Shown here: positions 1,274 through 13,938 of the stretch, piece by piece
Position numbering within the stretch: the first letter of the stretch is position 1
Layout: every line of letters starts with the position of its first letter
Source of the DNA: Limihaloglobus sulfuriphilus
GTDB taxonomy: Bacteria > Planctomycetota > Phycisphaerae > Sedimentisphaerales > Sedimentisphaeraceae
Length of the DNA stretch: 64,000 nucleotides
Assembly (NCBI RefSeq): GCF_001999965.1
Contig: NZ_CP019646.1
Location: forward strand, 868,001 to 932,000
Reading direction: 5' to 3'
The notes under the pieces: model-generated
Told to the model about the DNA's origin: nothing
The model's database searches: none
What the model saw: the letters and a program-made list of their open reading frames with translations, nothing else
Position numbers and translations under genes: made by a program

Positions 1274-3562
1274 ATGAAAAATTATCTGTTCGTCTGTATT
1301 TTAGTTTGTTCTTTATCATTTTGCATTGCAGAAGATTACTTTTACGGCTACACCGGTGACGGCACAGTTCCTCCGTCTCCCGAGTGGGCGCATGATGCGG
1401 TATTTTACAGTATAAACGTACAGCATTTCGGGAAAGCCCAGACGCCCGGCAGCTACTTTGAGAAAGCCGCGGCAGAGCTGGACTATATTAAAGACCTCGG
1501 TGCCAATACGGTAGTTGTTAATCCCGTTACCGAATTTCTTGACGAGATGGACCCTAAATTCTGGAATGCATATTACATGAAAGATCCTGCAGCGATCTCC
1601 GGGGCGTACGGCGGCGCGGAGGATTTCAAAGATTTTGTCAGCAAAGCTCATTCCTTAGGTTTGAAAGTTATTGTTGACACTCTTGTAAGGCCGCTCTATG
1701 CAGACGGCGAAGCTGCGAAAAAAATACTGGCTGAGGGAAATCACGACTGGTTCGCGCCGGGGCTTACTAAAGAGCAGCTCGAAAAGCCTTTTAAAGGTGA
1801 TTCTGTTGGCATGTATAATCCGGTTGAAGCTAAATTTACCTTTGTCTCTCAGGATATAGAGTCTCAAAACCACCGTAAAGATTATATACTTTTAAACCAG
1901 GGGGGAGCTGAAACCAAACCTGTAATTGGAGACTGGAATGGAGACCAGAGAGACAGTATCGGAATCAGAAAAAATGATGGCACATTCGTTCTTACTGATG
2001 TCACAGAAACAGGCGAAATATCAAAAATAGATTATCAGTTTATATTTGGCCCCGCAGGTGAAAATATTATTCCCATAGCCGGCGACTGGGACGGTGACGG
2101 TTATGACACCATAGGAATCTATAACAGCCAAAACGCTATATTTTATTTGAAGAACTCGCTAGAACCCGGCGATGCTGACATCATCATTCGCGGTATAAAA
2201 TCTGGCTGGATTCCAATTACAGGCGATTGGGATGGAGATGGCGCTGACGAAGTTGGGGAATATGATCCTGAGTCGGCAATTTTTTACCATTATGAAAGCG
2301 ATGGAGAGATGTACAGCAAACCATACTCCCATGGCGGCGAGAAATACGCAGCTGTGTGCGGCGACTGGAATGGTGATGGAAATGACAGTATTGCCGTCAT
2401 ATCAAAAAGTGCCGGCCAGAAAAGAGGCTTCAAGGATCTCTTTGTTTATTTTTACAGAAATGCACTTAGCAGCGGTGGAGCTCACGGAAGTTATGAGCTG
2501 AATTTAAAGGATGGATATAAATATCCTGTCGTTGGTAATGTTGACTTTAATGCAAAAAGAGGGCCTTCTTTGTTATTCGGGAATTCCTGCTATGAATTTC
2601 AGTGGGACAATCCCGGTCTGCAGGAGTTTATGATAGAAAACTGGGTTGATTTGGTCAAGAGGTTTGATTTTGACGGATATCGTCTCGATTGTGAGGCGTA
2701 TCAAACAGTTCTGGCTCCCTACGGTAACCAGAATGTCTGGAAACGCGTCTGGCAGAGATGCCACGAGCGGCTGGGTAAAGATGTTTTTCTCATTGCAGAA
2801 ATGGACGGTATGGGTCATTACAATATCCACGCCGAACAGGATACATTCGGGGTTCTGACCAACCTGCACTGGGATCCACAGGGTAAAAATCGTAATTTTA
2901 TGGTAAATGCCAATATTGTCGATACAGCCAAAACCCTGGAAAACACCTATTATACGATGACTTTGAGCTGTCACGACCATCACGAGTTTCAGGCAAAGGG
3001 CAGGCGGTCAACTTTCGGGTATATGGTCTTTTCTCCTTTTATGCCCTGGTGGAGAATGGGAGAAGAAGTTAACGCAAGAAAGTTCGTGCCACAGAAGGAT
3101 TCACAAAAGGGTTATGACGAAGTTCTATATTTCAGAGATATGGATTGGCAGGCTCTTGAAAATCCAGAGAAAAAAGCGTTTTATGAAGACGTTCGCAGAA
3201 TGCTGCATCTCAGAAAAGAATATAAAGATATCATTTCGCCGTTTTGCTCGAAATTTAAGGATAGAAATTTCACTGCCATACCGGCAGAAGGCTGTAAGCT
3301 CCAGGTTTACGCCAATTACGGCGGCGGTATTGCAATTATCGTCGCGGCAAAACTTGATGAGTCAGACGGTGACGTTACCCTGAATATAGATTCGCAGAAA
3401 CTGGCAGAAATGGGTCTGGGCGGTTTTGAAGAATTCAGGGTTACCGAAAAACTCTACAGGCCCAATGAGAGCAGGGTTTTGAGTAAATCGCAGCTCAGTG
3501 AACTCCGTCAGTATGTTGAAAATAATAATGTTGTATTTGTCGTTATTGAAGGCTTAAAATAG
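1274..3562 (+). CDS. Secreted GH13-like glycoside hydrolase interrupted by FG-GAP-like repeats
   Basis: 762 residues, with a signal peptide (about 1-19, cleaved near CIA|ED). The catalytic barrel starts around residue 40 and reaches the strand of region I at about 131-139 (GLKVIVDTLVRP). Then come four calcium-loop repeats of GDWxGDG type near residues 219, 270, 317 and 363, spaced 46-51 residues, plus a weaker one near 421. The barrel resumes with nucleophile Asp472 (GYRLD), acid/base Glu509 (IAEMD) and Asp568 (SCHDH). The full D-E-D triad suggests an active enzyme. Two features are atypical of GH13: region I lacks the usual Asn-His pair and region IV reads CHDH rather than NHD. It lies 8 nt after copy 1 and 7 nt before copy 3. 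The substrate is not deducible; an alpha-glucan or other alpha-linked glycan is the family default. Confidence 0.85.
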   Translation: MKNYLFVCILVCSLSFCIAEDYFYGYTGDGTVPPSPEWAHDAVFYSINVQHFGKAQTPGSYFEKAAAELDYIKDLGANTVVVNPVTEFLDEMDPKFWNAYYMKDPAAISGAYGGAEDFKDFVSKAHSLGLKVIVDTLVRPLYADGEAAKKILAEGNHDWFAPGLTKEQLEKPFKGDSVGMYNPVEAKFTFVSQDIESQNHRKDYILLNQGGAETKPVIGDWNGDQRDSIGIRKNDGTFVLTDVTETGEISKIDYQFIFGPAGENIIPIAGDWDGDGYDTIGIYNSQNAIFYLKNSLEPGDADIIIRGIKSGWIPITGDWDGDGADEVGEYDPESAIFYHYESDGEMYSKPYSHGGEKYAAVCGDWNGDGNDSIAVISKSAGQKRGFKDLFVYFYRNALSSGGAHGSYELNLKDGYKYPVVGNVDFNAKRGPSLLFGNSCYEFQWDNPGLQEFMIENWVDLVKRFDFDGYRLDCEAYQTVLAPYGNQNVWKRVWQRCHERLGKDVFLIAEMDGMGHYNIHAEQDTFGVLTNLHWDPQGKNRNFMVNANIVDTAKTLENTYYTMTLSCHDHHEFQAKGRRSTFGYMVFSPFMPWWRMGEEVNARKFVPQKDSQKGYDEVLYFRDMDWQALENPEKKAFYEDVRRMLHLRKEYKDIISPFCSKFKDRNFTAIPAEGCKLQVYANYGGGIAIIVAAKLDESDGDVTLNIDSQKLAEMGLGGFEEFRVTEKLYRPNESRVLSKSQLSELRQYVENNNVVFVVIEGLK
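3188..3562 (+). repeat. Near-identical 3' segment, copy 2 (pairs with 891-1265)
   Basis: This is the partner of 891-1265. The identity covers the end of the barrel and the C-terminal beta domain up to the stop codon, while upstream parts of the two genes (FG-GAP insert) differ much more, giving a mosaic pattern. Confidence 0.85.
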
Positions 3563-3569
3563 GTTAGAA

Positions 3570-5966
3570 ATGAAAAAATCTTTGCTCGTCTGTATTATTT
3601 GGTGTTTCTTATCAATCTGCACTGCGGAAAACTATTTTTACGGCTACACCGGTGACGGCACAGTTCCTCCGTCTCCCGAGTGGGCTCATGATGCGGTATT
3701 TTACAGTATAAACGTACAGCATTTCGGGAAACCCCAGACGCCCGGCAGCTATTTTGAGAAAGCCGCGGCAGAGCTCGAATATATCAAGCAGCTCGGCGCT
3801 AATACTGTTGTATTAAATCCTGTACAGAGCTTTGCCGCAGGCGAAGACCCGAGGTACTGGAACGCTTACAGCCGCAAGGATCATACGATTTCTGATGCTT
3901 ACGGCGGCGGTGAAAAGTATAAGCAGTTTGTTCAGCACGCCCACAGTTTAGGCTTAAAGGTTGTTCAGGATGTGGTCATACGCTGGCTCTGGGCTGAAGG
4001 GCCCGAGGCAACAGAAATCCTGGAAAACGGCAATCACCACTGGTTTTTCCCCGGCTGGACTCAGCAGGAGCTTGAAACACCGTTTGAAGGTGACAGTGTC
4101 GGCGTTTACAATCCTGCCCAGGGCAAATTCAGGTTTCTCAGTCTTGATGTTAATTCTGAGAATAACTTAAAAGATTTTGTATTCCAAAACCAGGGCGGCA
4201 TAACTACTAAGCCGGTTATCGGTGACTGGGACGGCGACAAGAGAGACAGTATCGGTATCTGGAGATACGGAAACTTTACGCTTACTAATATTCATACACC
4301 CGGAATAATTTCCCAGGTTGACTATAATTTTTCTTTTGGCCCGGCCGCAGACCATATCACGCCTGTTGCAGGCGATTGGGACGGTGATGGTAAAGACGGA
4401 ATAGGGGTTTATGATAATTCTACGGGTACCTTTTATCTGCGTAACAGCCTCGATTCTGGAGAAGCCGATATTGTTATAACCGGTCAGGGCTCGGGGCTTT
4501 CGCCGCTGGCCGGCGACTGGAACGGAGACGGCCGCGATCAGGTCGGAGAATATAATCAGCAGACAGGTTATTTTTATCATTACAACAGTGAAGGCACGCT
4601 TTCTATTCCGCCATATCGGTATGGCGGCGCAGGTACTTCAACGCCGGCGGTTGCCGGCGATTGGGACGGAAACGGCTCTTCTGGAATAGCAATAATTCAA
4701 ACAGATTCCGAGCGCGACAGATTTCTTTATAAAAATACCCTCTCCGGTGGAAACGCCGACAGTTACTATGACCTAAGTTTGTATGAAGGGTATGATTACA
4801 GGGTTGTCGGCAATTTTGATTACGGGGCACAGAGAACTCCGTTCAAGGTAATCGGCAGGTTTTATGATTTAAAATGGGACGACCCGGACCTTCAGGAATA
4901 TATGATAGATAAATGGGTCAACCTTATCAGGGAATATGACATTGACGGATTCCGGCTCGATCTCGAGGCGCATCAGACGGTTCTGGTTCCTTTCGGCAAC
5001 CAGAATGTATGGAAAAGGGTTATACAAAGATGTTATGATGAATTTGGTAAAAAATTCTTAACAATATCTGAGCATGACGGCATGGGCAACAACAATATTC
5101 ATGCCGAACAGGACTCTTACGGCGTGTTTACAAACCTTCATTGGGACCCATGGGGAGAAAACCGTAATTTTATGGTTAACGCCAACATCGTAGATACCGC
5201 CAAAACCCTCGAAAACACCTACTATACAATGACTTTGAGCTGCCACGACCACGGAGATTTTCAGGCCAAAGGCAGACGCGCCGCCTTTGGTTACATGGTT
5301 TTTTCTCCGTTTATGCCATGGTGGAGAATGGGTGAAGAGGTCAATGCGGTCAGCAATGCCCCCAATTATGGCACAGACGGCTACGGAAGTGTTCTTTATT
5401 TCAGTGACATGGATTGGGATGCTTTCGAAGATCAGAACAAATTGAATTTCTATCAAGACGTTCGCAGAATGCTATGGTTAAGGGCAGAGTATAAGGATAT
5501 AATCTCGCCGTTTGCCTCAAAATTCAAAAACCGCAAATTTACGGAAATATCCGCAACAGGGTGTAATTTACAGGTTTACGCGACCTACGGCAGCGGTAAG
5601 GCCGTTATAGTCGCCGCAAAACTCGATGAGCCGGATGGTAATGTAACACTGAATATCGGCCATGATAAGCTTGAAGAGCTGGGGCTGGCTGAATTTGAAT
5701 TTTTTGCCGCAACGGAAAAGCTTTATAAGCCGGCAGAGACAGATATCGTTACAGCAGAAAATCTTGAAAATTACCAGATATATGTAAAAAAGAATGATGT
5801 GATTTTTCTTGTTCTTGAAGGAACATCGCAAGATCTTTTAGGGGCAGATATCAACAAAGACGGATATGTGAACTTTCTCGATTTTTTTGAGATGTATGCC
5901 AGGTGGCAGGATTGTTCGGATCCTGCCGGCATTGACTGCGTAAATTTTAACTCCCAAGGCAGTTGA
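3570..5966 (+). CDS. Secreted GH13-like glycoside hydrolase with FG-GAP insert and C-terminal dockerin-like segment
   Basis: 798 residues, the third tandem paralogue. A signal peptide occupies about 1-19. Its first ~145 bases after the signal peptide are nearly identical to those of copy 2. Region I reads QDVVIRW, closer to the family DVVxNH but still without Asn-His. GDWxGDG-type loops again sit between region I and the nucleophile Asp464 (GFRLD); Glu501 (ISEHDG) and Asp560 (SCHDH) complete the triad. Only this copy carries a tail, residues about 757-798, with a GADINKDGYVNFLDFFEMY calcium-loop/helix typical of the dockerin-like modules common in planctomycete exoproteins. It is probably a secreted, surface- or complex-associated alpha-glycan enzyme. 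The start has AGGTTAGAA upstream. It is followed after 44 nt by the GH78-like gene. Confidence 0.85.
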   Translation: MKKSLLVCIIWCFLSICTAENYFYGYTGDGTVPPSPEWAHDAVFYSINVQHFGKPQTPGSYFEKAAAELEYIKQLGANTVVLNPVQSFAAGEDPRYWNAYSRKDHTISDAYGGGEKYKQFVQHAHSLGLKVVQDVVIRWLWAEGPEATEILENGNHHWFFPGWTQQELETPFEGDSVGVYNPAQGKFRFLSLDVNSENNLKDFVFQNQGGITTKPVIGDWDGDKRDSIGIWRYGNFTLTNIHTPGIISQVDYNFSFGPAADHITPVAGDWDGDGKDGIGVYDNSTGTFYLRNSLDSGEADIVITGQGSGLSPLAGDWNGDGRDQVGEYNQQTGYFYHYNSEGTLSIPPYRYGGAGTSTPAVAGDWDGNGSSGIAIIQTDSERDRFLYKNTLSGGNADSYYDLSLYEGYDYRVVGNFDYGAQRTPFKVIGRFYDLKWDDPDLQEYMIDKWVNLIREYDIDGFRLDLEAHQTVLVPFGNQNVWKRVIQRCYDEFGKKFLTISEHDGMGNNNIHAEQDSYGVFTNLHWDPWGENRNFMVNANIVDTAKTLENTYYTMTLSCHDHGDFQAKGRRAAFGYMVFSPFMPWWRMGEEVNAVSNAPNYGTDGYGSVLYFSDMDWDAFEDQNKLNFYQDVRRMLWLRAEYKDIISPFASKFKNRKFTEISATGCNLQVYATYGSGKAVIVAAKLDEPDGNVTLNIGHDKLEELGLAEFEFFAATEKLYKPAETDIVTAENLENYQIYVKKNDVIFLVLEGTSQDLLGADINKDGYVNFLDFFEMYARWQDCSDPAGIDCVNFNSQGS

Positions 5967-9981: not shown

Positions 9982-10056
9982 AGACAAATATAAATAAGGA
10001 TTTAACATAGAAAGTTATGAATGAGATACCTGCACAGATTGATTGAAGGTTCGCTT

Positions 10057-13000
10057 ATGCGTAAATGTTTTTTATCATTATTGTTAATTCTCTCTTTAAA
10101 GACTGGTTTTTGCAGTCCTTATGCCCCGTTTGAACCTGACTTTGTCACTGAGTATAAAAAAGTCTCAGATGTGAGCCTGAAAATCCATGTTTTTAATCCT
10201 GACGACCACAGCCAGGCCGACAGCAGGCCGGCAATAGTATTCTTTTTCGACGGCAGCTGGCAAACCGCGTTTATAAAGCAGTTTTACCCGCATTGCGAAT
10301 ACCTCTCAAGACGCGGCATGGTGGCCTTTGCGGCGGAATACCGCGTTGAAAGTATTCACAATACCTCACCTCGGGAATGTGTTATGGATGCCAAATCCGC
10401 TATACGATGGCTCAGGAGCAATGCCGCGGCGCTGGGCATAGATCCGGACCGGATCGCGGCGGGCGGCGGTTCGGCTGGCGGCCATATTGCAGCGGCCGCC
10501 GCCGCAATCGATGGTTTCAATGAAAGCACTGACGATGTTTCAATAAGCTGCATTCCAAATGCACTTGCCCTTTTTAATCCCGTATTTGATAACGGTCCCG
10601 AGGGTTACGGGTTTGACAGGGTCAAAGATTACTGGCGGCAGTTTTCTCCGCTGCACAATATACACGCATCTATGCCGCCGACTGTAATATTTCTGGGAAC
10701 CAAAGACGAACTAATACCGGTCAGCACTGCACAAAAATACCGGCAGAAGATGCTTGAGCTTGGTCTCAGGTGTGAGCTTTGCCTTTACGAAGACCAGCAT
10801 CACGGCTTTTTTAATTTAAATCACAATGAATATTACAATAAAACTCTTTCTGTTCTTGATAGTTTCTTAGTCTCTCTTGGTTATATAAACCAAATGCAGC
10901 CGGAAAGGCAGATCGATGAATCAGGGTTGAACACTGTTAAACTGCTTGATAAACCTGTTGTCAAATGGCGGGGCGGCAGTATTCAGTTAAGAACAGGCGA
11001 GACGGTTGAGTTTTCAAATCCCCATGTAAAGGAACACGATAACAGGCAAAGCCTTATAACGGAGGCGGCCTCTGGATTTCAGATAAATGAGTGGACTGAT
11101 CATTCAAAATCAGGCGAAGGCGATAAGTGGAGCAGACGTCTTGTCTTTATCAATAACTCGGATAAGCAGGTAGATGTTACCGGCGCTAAATTTACGTTTG
11201 ACGTAAATTTCTGCGGTGATATCTGGGATAATGACAATTTTTGTATGGCGGATACTGAATACGGCCGCAGGTTTATAGTCGGGTATAACAGCAGCGAGGA
11301 TTATAACAGCATAAACGCCGCTGAAAATGACGGGCAACATACGATCGAAATAAATGTCCATGCCGGCTGGCGGCTCAAACCGGGTCAGCAGGCCGTTATG
11401 AGTGAGGCTGTTTTTGCCTTGAAAAGGCCGGATGCGGATGAGACATTCAGGGAAACTGCCGCGTGGTGGTACAAAGATGTTTTGAAAATGAAACGCCCGG
11501 ATTACCCAGACTGGTTAAGAGGTTCGGTAATGTATGAAGCGGCGGCTTCGGGGCATATCGATTCAAGTTTTTCGGATACAGGCGGCTTCGACAATTTCGC
11601 AAAGCAGGTTCCTTACCTTGCCGATATTGGGGTAAATTTTCTCTGGCTTAATTCCGTCTTCAGGCACAAGGGGCCATCACCAGATAAAGGCTGGAATCAT
11701 TATGATCCGCTGGATTTTACAAAAATAGATGAGGTTCTCGGCGGGCCCGAAAGTTTAAGACGCCTTATGGATGTCTTAAAGGATAACGGCTTTCATACTG
11801 TAGGTGAGCTTGTACCGCATGGCGGCCAGTCAGTTCAGGCACGCAGACTCACAGACCAGTGGTCAACGAGGTCGCCGGAGGGCAATATTATTCCCACGTG
11901 GAATTCGCTGCATATAGATTACAGCAGTCCGCCCTGGCAGGAGACCATGGGCAGGGCGGCGGCGATGCTTGCCGGTTTCGGTATGGAAGGTGTGCGTATA
12001 GACGTTGCGGATCCGGTTTCGATGAACTGGAGCTCACCGCGGACAAACCATGCTTCATACTCTCAGCTTGGCGGCTCGCTTGAGCTCCAGAGGAAAATCG
12101 TTGAATCAATGAAAGATGCAGGGATTGATAAACCGCTGCTGATCCCCGAATCATGTTTTGACAGGCCGGAGTTCGGCCGGCTGCCGGCAATTGGATACGG
12201 CTGGTCGTTCATTTTTAAACTCCACAACCTCCTTGAAGAGCATCGCGGTAATCCGCCTGTACTTGTAAAGCATCTGGAGCGGGTAATTACCGATAAACTT
12301 GATTCAAGCCCTCCCGGCTATCTGCTTATCTGGTCAGCGGGCAATCACGACATGCTACATCAATACGGACGACCCGCAATCAGGTTCGGAAGGGGTCTGT
12401 TCAGAGCTATATACGGGATATGCGCCTCGCTGCCCGGGGTGCCAATGCTCTATCAGGAAGACGAAATAGGCTCTTACGATACCATAAGGGCCATAAACTG
12501 GGCCAGAAGGACACTTCCCGAGTTCAAGTCTGACCACTATTGCCTCGATTCTGTTACCTTTGATGAACAGGGCAGAGTTTTCGATATTCTCAGAAGTGAA
12601 AACTCGATTTTTACAGCAGATTCAAAATCAACTCTGGTTCTTGTCAATCTCTCCGGTGAATTCATTCAAGGGACTGTCGAATTTGACGGGTTTCAGAATT
12701 CAAATCTGCCGGATCAGGTCGAAATTTTTGATGTATTAAACAGCCAAAAGTTTACCATGAATAGCGGCAGGTTTGATTATTCTCTTGGGGCCTACCAGAC
12801 TGCCTTCTTGAGAATAGGCCGCCGGTCGGAACCCCTTCCCAAACAGAACTTTACAGGGCAAAAGCTGGTTAAAGATATATATTCATCGGAATTTGAAACA
12901 CAAATCAACCAGGATAACGTCCGTGTCGTGAATGGAAAAATCGCCGCGGAGCTGAATACCGGCAGCGGCATAAGCAACTTGGAACCTGAAAGCTTCACTG

Positions 13001-13938
13001 TCAGTTACCAGGGAGAGTCAACCCTGTCTCTGAAGGTTTTCAACAGCAACAGATGGAAAGTTTCCGCTGTTGATTCTCTGATAAGCGACAGGACACTTAG
13101 ACGGCATTATCCATTCGATCCGGATACGGGTTATAAATGGAACAGAACCTCTTCCCATGGCTATCCGTATCTTTATGATAAAGTTGCCCCCGTAGGCAGG
13201 CTGTGGCAATCATTCACTGAGCCGCTGCATCCCGAAAAACCCTCTATAGTTTTCTATGATAAAGACGGCAAAGGCATCAGATTGGATGTCATTTCCAGTA
13301 ATGCGGAGAATATTGTCCTTACAGACAGAACGGACGAGTTTCCGGATGAGCCCTTTGCCCTTGAGCTGCGTTTTTATCTAAATGATCCGGATATAAGCGA
13401 TAAGGCCAGGGCATTTGGAATCAGGCCGGCCTTTGAGATAGAACCAATGCCTGATAACAATTTCGATAAAAAATTGAACGTTGAGCTTGCAATATCGGCG
13501 GCAGATATATCCGCTGAAAACCTCGAAGCAAAACGAATGCCCAACCCGAAAACTCATGTTCCTGCGGCCCTGATTGGCGAGGGCTTTGATGTGCCTGTCG
13601 GCCCTGTGCGTTTTCTCAGCGAGGGCACAGTCCTGTGGCCAGTGCTCTCAGCTCCCGCAGGCAAATATTACCTGCAGTTTGAAGCTGTTTACTCATCTGA
13701 ATCAGTTGACGGCAGAGAACTTGCAGATTGCTATGAAGTACAGTTCAACGGCAGAAAACTCGACGCTCAATGGGTAGAATTCAATACAGGCAGCACCTTT
13801 ATAGATTCTATGTACTATTTCGGATATCTTCGAACCGAACCGGTAATCATTACAGATACTTTCAGGGTCTCTTTTTCCGCCTCAAGGGGCAGATGTGTTC
13901 TCAATAAGCCTTTTAAATTGATAAAAGCAGACGAATAA
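10057..13938 (+). CDS. Secreted esterase-GH13 fusion enzyme
   Basis: 1293 residues from the ATG at 10057, which has GAAGG upstream and begins with a clean signal peptide (MRKCFLSLLLILSLKTGFCS). Residues about 30-280 form an alpha/beta hydrolase of esterase/acetyl-xylan-esterase type, with nucleophile Ser139 in GGGSAGGH, Asp217 (TKDELIP) and His249 (QHHGFF). The usual HGGG oxyanion motif is replaced by FFDGSW. Residues about 290-480 look all-beta. From about 481 a GH13-like barrel follows with nucleophile Asp649 (GVRIDVADP), Glu698 (LLIPESC) and Asp765 (SAGNHDM), so the triad is intact, including the canonical NHD missing from the tandem GH13 genes upstream. The last ~450 residues are beta-rich with no recognised name. 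It probably deacylates and cleaves one substituted glycan. The two halves share one unbroken frame. Confidence 0.83.
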   Translation: MRKCFLSLLLILSLKTGFCSPYAPFEPDFVTEYKKVSDVSLKIHVFNPDDHSQADSRPAIVFFFDGSWQTAFIKQFYPHCEYLSRRGMVAFAAEYRVESIHNTSPRECVMDAKSAIRWLRSNAAALGIDPDRIAAGGGSAGGHIAAAAAAIDGFNESTDDVSISCIPNALALFNPVFDNGPEGYGFDRVKDYWRQFSPLHNIHASMPPTVIFLGTKDELIPVSTAQKYRQKMLELGLRCELCLYEDQHHGFFNLNHNEYYNKTLSVLDSFLVSLGYINQMQPERQIDESGLNTVKLLDKPVVKWRGGSIQLRTGETVEFSNPHVKEHDNRQSLITEAASGFQINEWTDHSKSGEGDKWSRRLVFINNSDKQVDVTGAKFTFDVNFCGDIWDNDNFCMADTEYGRRFIVGYNSSEDYNSINAAENDGQHTIEINVHAGWRLKPGQQAVMSEAVFALKRPDADETFRETAAWWYKDVLKMKRPDYPDWLRGSVMYEAAASGHIDSSFSDTGGFDNFAKQVPYLADIGVNFLWLNSVFRHKGPSPDKGWNHYDPLDFTKIDEVLGGPESLRRLMDVLKDNGFHTVGELVPHGGQSVQARRLTDQWSTRSPEGNIIPTWNSLHIDYSSPPWQETMGRAAAMLAGFGMEGVRIDVADPVSMNWSSPRTNHASYSQLGGSLELQRKIVESMKDAGIDKPLLIPESCFDRPEFGRLPAIGYGWSFIFKLHNLLEEHRGNPPVLVKHLERVITDKLDSSPPGYLLIWSAGNHDMLHQYGRPAIRFGRGLFRAIYGICASLPGVPMLYQEDEIGSYDTIRAINWARRTLPEFKSDHYCLDSVTFDEQGRVFDILRSENSIFTADSKSTLVLVNLSGEFIQGTVEFDGFQNSNLPDQVEIFDVLNSQKFTMNSGRFDYSLGAYQTAFLRIGRRSEPLPKQNFTGQKLVKDIYSSEFETQINQDNVRVVNGKIAAELNTGSGISNLEPESFTVSYQGESTLSLKVFNSNRWKVSAVDSLISDRTLRRHYPFDPDTGYKWNRTSSHGYPYLYDKVAPVGRLWQSFTEPLHPEKPSIVFYDKDGKGIRLDVISSNAENIVLTDRTDEFPDEPFALELRFYLNDPDISDKARAFGIRPAFEIEPMPDNNFDKKLNVELAISAADISAENLEAKRMPNPKTHVPAALIGEGFDVPVGPVRFLSEGTVLWPVLSAPAGKYYLQFEAVYSSESVDGRELADCYEVQFNGRKLDAQWVEFNTGSTFIDSMYYFGYLRTEPVIITDTFRVSFSASRGRCVLNKPFKLIKADE

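Follow-up and report, generated by a model that had tools for sequence, protein, structure and literature searches.

An FG-GAP-type propeller predicted at the domain B position of three tandem GH13-type proteins of Limihaloglobus sulfuriphilus

Three adjacent genes of Limihaloglobus sulfuriphilus encode secreted enzymes of the alpha-amylase family (GH13) with one common nested layout. They lie at the start of the window, by which we mean the whole 64,000-nucleotide stretch analysed (NZ_CP019646.1, positions 868,001 to 932,000), and the features given below by window coordinates are on its forward strand. In all three, sequence comparison and structure prediction gave the same architecture: the predicted catalytic triad is kept, and a long insert, modelled as an autonomously folding propeller, occupies a loop on the active-site side of the barrel. 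On balance we favour the view that these are secreted GH13-type glycosidases in which domain B has been replaced by a complete FG-GAP-type propeller that binds a polymeric substrate.

The barrel and the site of insertion

The open reading frame at 1274-3562 is intact and encodes 762 residues. It begins with a putative signal peptide (residues 1-19, 1274-1330; MKNYLFVCILVCSLSFCIAE), read from the sequence and similar in all three paralogues. The N-terminal half of the GH13 barrel follows (residues 21-171, 1334-1786) and comprises beta1-beta3 and a stub of domain B; PF00128 matched it over residues 68-161 (5.8e-13; 49.3 bits against the Pfam cut-off of 22 bits), and phmmer matched this half to TreZ (1eha, 5.7e-10). 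The C-terminal half, alpha3-beta8, was assigned to residues 439-650 (2588-3223) from profile continuity after deletion of the insert and from a full-length relative, L059, described below. Residues 651-762 (3224-3559) probably form domain C.

Residues 172-438, and the equivalent stretch of the paralogues, were deleted in silico and the resulting profile was searched against the PDB. The insert-deleted profile spanned the junction in one alignment with 4gkl, its best PDB sequence match (2.4e-14), with TreZ 1eha (4.8e-14) and with many other GH13 structures. HHalign also aligned the insert-deleted barrel continuously with two GH13 profiles (E = 7e-18 and 6e-17), both drawn mainly from genomes of the same order. 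By profile, the barrel is GH13; since it aligns continuously without residues 172-438, sequence comparison makes the insert a true nested insertion between beta3 (region I) and alpha3, the position of domain B. This continuity rules out a propeller attached as a terminal appendage.

The predicted catalytic triad consists of the nucleophile D472 in beta4 (GYRLD, 2687-2689), aligned with GH13 region II, the general acid/base E509 in beta5 (LIAEMDGMG, 2798-2800), and the third catalytic Asp, D568 in beta7 (SCHDH, 2975-2977), aligned with ISCHD of L059. All three residues are invariant in the three copies, which also keep the invariant Arg R470 and the region IV His H567. Alignment to L059 supports D472 and D568; E509 is read only from its motif. 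The barrel was poor in the AlphaFold2 model of the full-length protein (pLDDT mostly below 50), and its fold was not confirmed, because only three closely related barrel sequences were supplied. Deeper barrel alignments were dropped, as distant GH13 halves fell on the propeller or on the wrong half. It is therefore topology, and not the model, that places the propeller over the active site.

The inserted propeller

The insert covers residues 172-438 (1787-2587). The earlier note had described four GDWxGDG loops in this region, spaced 46-51 residues apart between region I and the nucleophile. Their number, spacing and place held, but the first loop reads GDWNGDQ, leaving the exact motif in three of the four. 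The Ca-type loops are GDWNGDQRD (residues 219-227, 1928-1954), GDWDGDGYD (270-278, 2081-2107), GDWDGDGAD (317-325, 2222-2248) and GDWNGDGND (363-371, 2360-2386). Written as GDW[DN]GD, the motif starts at residues 219, 270, 317 and 363 (spacings 51, 47 and 46), between D135 of region I and D472. When the 267-residue insert was shuffled 20,000 times with its composition preserved, the motif appeared a mean of 0.00005 times and at most once, against four times in the protein, which rules out chance repeats. At the DNA level the four loops make up a single family of direct repeats, at intervals of 153, 141 and 138 nucleotides. Ahead of loop 1 there is a half repeat (DSVGMYNPVEAKFTF, residues 176-190), and a degenerate fifth repeat, VVGNVDFNAKR, is found at residues 419-429 (loop GNVDFNAKR, 421-429).

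Pfam FG-GAP_3 matched residues 318-375 of the 762-residue protein (P0001) with 26.2 bits (1.3e-5), just under the cut-off of 26.9; the corresponding scores were 25.8 bits in P0002 and 20.2 bits in P0003.

AlphaFold2 modelled the insert confidently even within the full-length protein, with blocks mostly at 81-97 pLDDT from residue 201 to 420. Modelled alone (residues 165-447, 20 sequences), it reached a mean pLDDT of 88 and a pTM of 0.87. The predicted strands form four complete four-stranded blades (residues 215-411) and a closing blade that starts with strand 417-421 and continues with 177-182, 187-191 and 201-206, a pattern that recurs in the full-length model. The last blade of the model unites both ends of the insert, as expected of the ring closure that a nested insertion needs. 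Read from strand order, with the hairpin at 432-441 unplaced, the propeller is likely five-bladed, with six as the alternative. These models predict with high confidence that the insert folds as a separate domain of propeller type, the outcome for which the earlier note had proposed structure prediction. Repeated blades and DxDxDG-type Ca loops, the marks of an FG-GAP/integrin-type propeller, are both present; the seven blades of integrins are not, strand order pointing to five.

A Foldseek search of the PDB with the insert model placed propellers on top, led by UmbA4 (9oee, 1.5e-7) and followed by the fungal GlcNAc-binding lectins PAL, PVL and that of Agrocybe (about 1e-4) and then by ITFG2, BBS1 and integrins. 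TM-scores were moderate (0.35-0.5 of the query), which we attribute to differing blade numbers. By sequence the insert had just one match in the PDB, again UmbA4 (6.1e-4). Teichuronic acid is the ligand of that propeller, whose Ca-type loops are conserved while its pockets vary (PMC13274773). The earlier proposal of a propeller-like domain at the domain B position is supported on three counts: the barrel is continuous with GH13 once the insert is deleted, the insert is modelled as a separate domain, and its nearest folds include carbohydrate-binding propellers. Copying of the propeller from elsewhere in the genome was also considered and rejected: no other match was found there at E <= 0.01, and the FG-GAP proteins encoded upstream have a different repeat subtype.

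Paralogues, gene neighbourhood and relatives

The earlier note had seen the same layout in the gene at 3570 and in the visible part of the first gene, and this holds. The second paralogue (3570-5966) encodes 798 residues with the same architecture and an added dockerin-like C-terminal tail (PF00128, 1.1e-12; FG-GAP_3, 1.6e-5; Dockerin_1, 0.035, below cut-off); its propeller spans residues 171-430 (4080-4859). The upstream paralogue is cut by the window start, and its visible part (3-1265) consists of the end of the insert (3-293) followed by the C-terminal barrel half. The full copy in the genome (G000:C1:866974-869265) encodes 763 residues in the same layout.

The three tandem paralogues are 62-68% identical. 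Identity is 50-52% in the inserts, compared with 67-75% in the barrel halves, and within the insert 72% of Ca-loop positions are invariant against 31-32% of the rest. Insert dN was 0.39-0.42 with saturated dS (ps about 0.8), values that fit purifying selection; the faster divergence of the insert could alternatively reflect relaxed constraint.

The C-terminal domain behaves differently, with 96% amino acid identity and a dS of 0.13 to the upstream paralogue (P0003) against a dS above 1 elsewhere. At the nucleotide level, the genes at 3-1265 and 1274-3562 share about 96% identity over their final ~390 bp (window 3179-3570), again with dS 0.13. Judged by this identity, the stretch is a recent gene-conversion tract confined to the C-terminal domain. 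A second high-identity tract joins the 5' ends of the genes at 1274 and 3570 (1334-1510 versus about 3630-3806; 82-98% nucleotide identity in 60-base steps), which suggests conversion there too. The propellers have not been homogenised. The dockerin-like tail of the 798-residue paralogue (window 5820-5927, ADINKDGYVNFLDFFEMYARWQDCSDPAGIDC) is very similar to that of a sulfatase encoded upstream of the window (L075 7591-9135), suggesting an anchoring or sorting signal common to the two proteins.

Downstream of the paralogues are genes for an alpha-L-rhamnosidase-like protein (6011), sulfatases (8506 and 13954) and an esterase-GH13 fusion (10021). Upstream, outside the window, lie those for the dockerin-tailed sulfatase, an MFS sugar transporter, a GntR/LacI-type regulator and a CBM9-like protein. 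The neighbourhood thus holds three sulfatases in total, and the natural inference from its gene content is that the cluster serves the breakdown of a sulfated, rhamnose-containing polysaccharide. The fusion (10021-13938; 1305 residues) joins an alpha/beta-hydrolase of BD-FAE type to a GH13 domain and completes the set of four PF00128 genes found in the genome, all of which lie in this cluster. Just upstream of the window, in the cluster of the GH13-propeller genes, two further secreted FG-GAP proteins (L075:12434-13399 and L075:14414-16240) carry the repeat subtype GDVNGDGYADR, one with PEP-CTERM and the other with a LamG-like domain and a dockerin-like end.

Scanning 84,980 species genomes by peptide pattern gave 35 loci, all of which match the insert and none the barrel; the scan used exact 8-residue patterns, which distant barrel relatives would escape. 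Among the proteins that carry this propeller type are N-acetylmuramoyl-L-alanine amidase, GH25, apiosidase-like, subtilase, M23 and VanY proteins. In cell-wall hydrolases and proteases elsewhere, it is attached at a terminus. When 397 genomes of the class were searched with a profile of the C-terminal barrel half, the three genes of the window were the only matches; in 392 genomes of the phylum the profile gave one more, weak match (L059). This 582-residue open frame comes from a distantly related genome of the phylum and is a full-length relative by HHalign (6.6e-20 over 424 columns). It is the nearest full-length relative of the barrel; its domain B is short (HPEWFREGSWGMTDFDWFGGHEDL), and it lacks a propeller. 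Barrel relatives were also sought in viral contigs and plasmids, and none was found there. GDWxGDG arrays, of up to eight copies and mostly at 47-residue spacing, occur in five other genomes of the phylum (L090-L112; G093, G074, G178, G259 and G327), none in frame with a GH13 barrel. Within the 397 class and 392 phylum genomes sampled, the combination of GH13 barrel and propeller appears private to the window's genome.

Possible roles of the propeller and known precedents

Domain B is a small lid over the active site, placed between beta3 and alpha3, and gives the substrate cleft its shape. It is the most variable part of GH13 enzymes and helps to determine their specificity, and in GH13 structures the beta3-alpha3 loop lines the active-site cleft. 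In the reading we favour, the propeller would bind a stretch of polymeric substrate and then present it to the barrel, much as CBM58 acts within domain B of SusG or CBM4 modules in the beta3/alpha3 loop of GH10. As this loop emerges on the face of the barrel that holds the active site, the propeller would form one wall of the cleft or a platform beside it. The polymer is probably a sulfated polysaccharide, as sulfatase and rhamnosidase genes are neighbours. The three copies would have diverged chiefly in the propeller, each coming to recognise another part of the substrate. A bolder version, which we advance tentatively and with rather less than even confidence, is that these proteins represent an undescribed GH13-type group in which a lectin-like Ca-loop propeller, as domain B and cleft wall, sets specificity for a sulfated polysaccharide not known as a GH13 substrate.

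Carbohydrate binding, as suggested by the models and by analogy, is one option among several, because FG-GAP propellers also serve protein-protein contacts; those of integrins and ITFG2 are protein-binding. The main rival explanation is that the propeller is a structural or docking module (a Ca-stabilised spacer, a surface anchor, or a partner contact as in integrins) that landed by chance in the beta3-alpha3 loop and makes no contact with substrate. We judge this unlikely, though it deserves serious weight. Integrin and ITFG2 propellers are indeed among the fold matches, but the best match in both sequence and fold, UmbA4, is a proven glycan binder. The propeller type is a mobile add-on of the unrelated secreted enzymes listed above, from the amidase and GH25 proteins to the apiosidase-like, subtilase, M23 and VanY proteins, yet many of these hosts act on cell-wall glycans. 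The two free-standing FG-GAP proteins upstream would be possible partners, and the dockerin-like tail on one paralogue means that the cluster may assemble on a surface; a module serving only such contacts, however, would be sitting in a loop that lines the GH13 active-site cleft.

A second alternative concerns the barrel itself. Canonical GH13 region I reads DxxxNH, and its Asn-His pair is near-universal. In the 762-residue protein region I is D135-T-L-V-R-P (1676-1693), in which both residues are missing; P0002 reads DVVIRW, lacking both, and the third copy, DVVVRH, has lost half of the pair. With the pair missing, subsite -1 may be unusual, or activity altered, in the DTLVRP and DVVIRW copies. 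The pair is typical of most GH13 subfamilies but not of all (PMC11239784). The loss could be taken to mean that the barrel has no hydrolytic activity and that the whole protein is degenerate, serving only binding or surveillance, and curated GH13 subfamily models do score far below their cut-offs. We consider this improbable, given that D472, E509, D568, R470 and H567 are kept in all three copies and that the barrel is more conserved than the insert. L059, whose acid/base motif reads IIIEG, likewise lacks the Asn-His pair, and the region I change may therefore be a family feature. Nor is the layout an artefact in which a GH13 gene became joined to an FG-GAP gene through misassembly, a frameshift or a fused gene model: nothing points to one beyond the unusual architecture and its limitation to one genome, and three tandem paralogues with identical nested layouts in single open frames of a one-contig genome refute it.

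The substrate-binding reading has its closest precedent in SusG of Bacteroides thetaiotaomicron, a GH13 enzyme with CBM58 inserted in domain B, as cited in PMC7848910. Like the present proteins, SusG is a secreted or surface enzyme from a polysaccharide-use cluster whose domain B harbours a foreign domain that folds on its own, and a Foldseek search with the full-length model recovered SusG (6bs6) over 517 columns at rank 24. The CBM58 of SusG, a CBM family in its own right, sits inside a domain B that is otherwise present, whereas here a propeller with four Ca-type loops fills nearly the whole B position; Pfam gave no CBM58 match in the 762-residue protein, the insert being of FG-GAP type. 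The GH10 xylanases Xyn10C and Pm25 carry CBM4/CBM22 modules nested in the beta3/alpha3 loop (PMC7848910), binding modules in the same TIM-barrel loop but in another GH family and with another inserted fold. UmbA4 of Streptomyces umbrella particles shares repeated Ca-type loops and is bacterial, secreted and glycan-binding (PMC13274773), but it has six blades against a probable five, is 14% identical, and its propeller is the C-terminal lectin domain of a toxin-particle protein and not part of an enzyme barrel. Psathyrella velutina-type lectins (PVL, PAL and the Agrocybe lectin) and integrin alpha propellers share the FG-GAP/Ca-loop fold, though theirs have seven blades and are eukaryotic, stand-alone or receptor domains.

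Among GH13 subfamilies, GH13_48 and GH13_49 (Thermotoga neapolitana maltogenic amylase 4gkl; H. japonica amylase) come nearest, since no other PDB entry matched the insert-deleted barrel by sequence as well as 4gkl did. Their features are a Cys directly before the nucleophile, a GQ ending CSR-VII and the NH of CSR-I (PMC11239784). The 762-residue protein has none of these (GYRLD, RMGEE and no CSR-I NH), which rules out membership. Assignment to an existing subfamily failed more generally with the curated NCBIfam models, whose scores were an order of magnitude under their cut-offs (best, TreZ, 54 bits against 539). The earlier note knew of no GH13 subfamily described in this way; the open-access full texts searched agree, but SusG with its CBM58 is a close precedent that the note did not name. 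Those texts held no description of FG-GAP/VCBS repeats with GH13, or of a propeller inserted in a glycosidase barrel. Neither the GH13 barrel, nor the propeller, nor the placing of a binding domain inside domain B is new by itself; the open-access literature searched contained no GH13 enzyme whose domain B is an FG-GAP propeller.

Three tandem nested-propeller copies and a propeller-free relative amount to a natural experiment on how TIM-barrel enzymes gain substrate-binding walls. They would join the few glycosidases known with nested domains (SusG-CBM58, GH10-CBM4), and they suggest that GH13-type chemistry may serve on sulfated polysaccharides.
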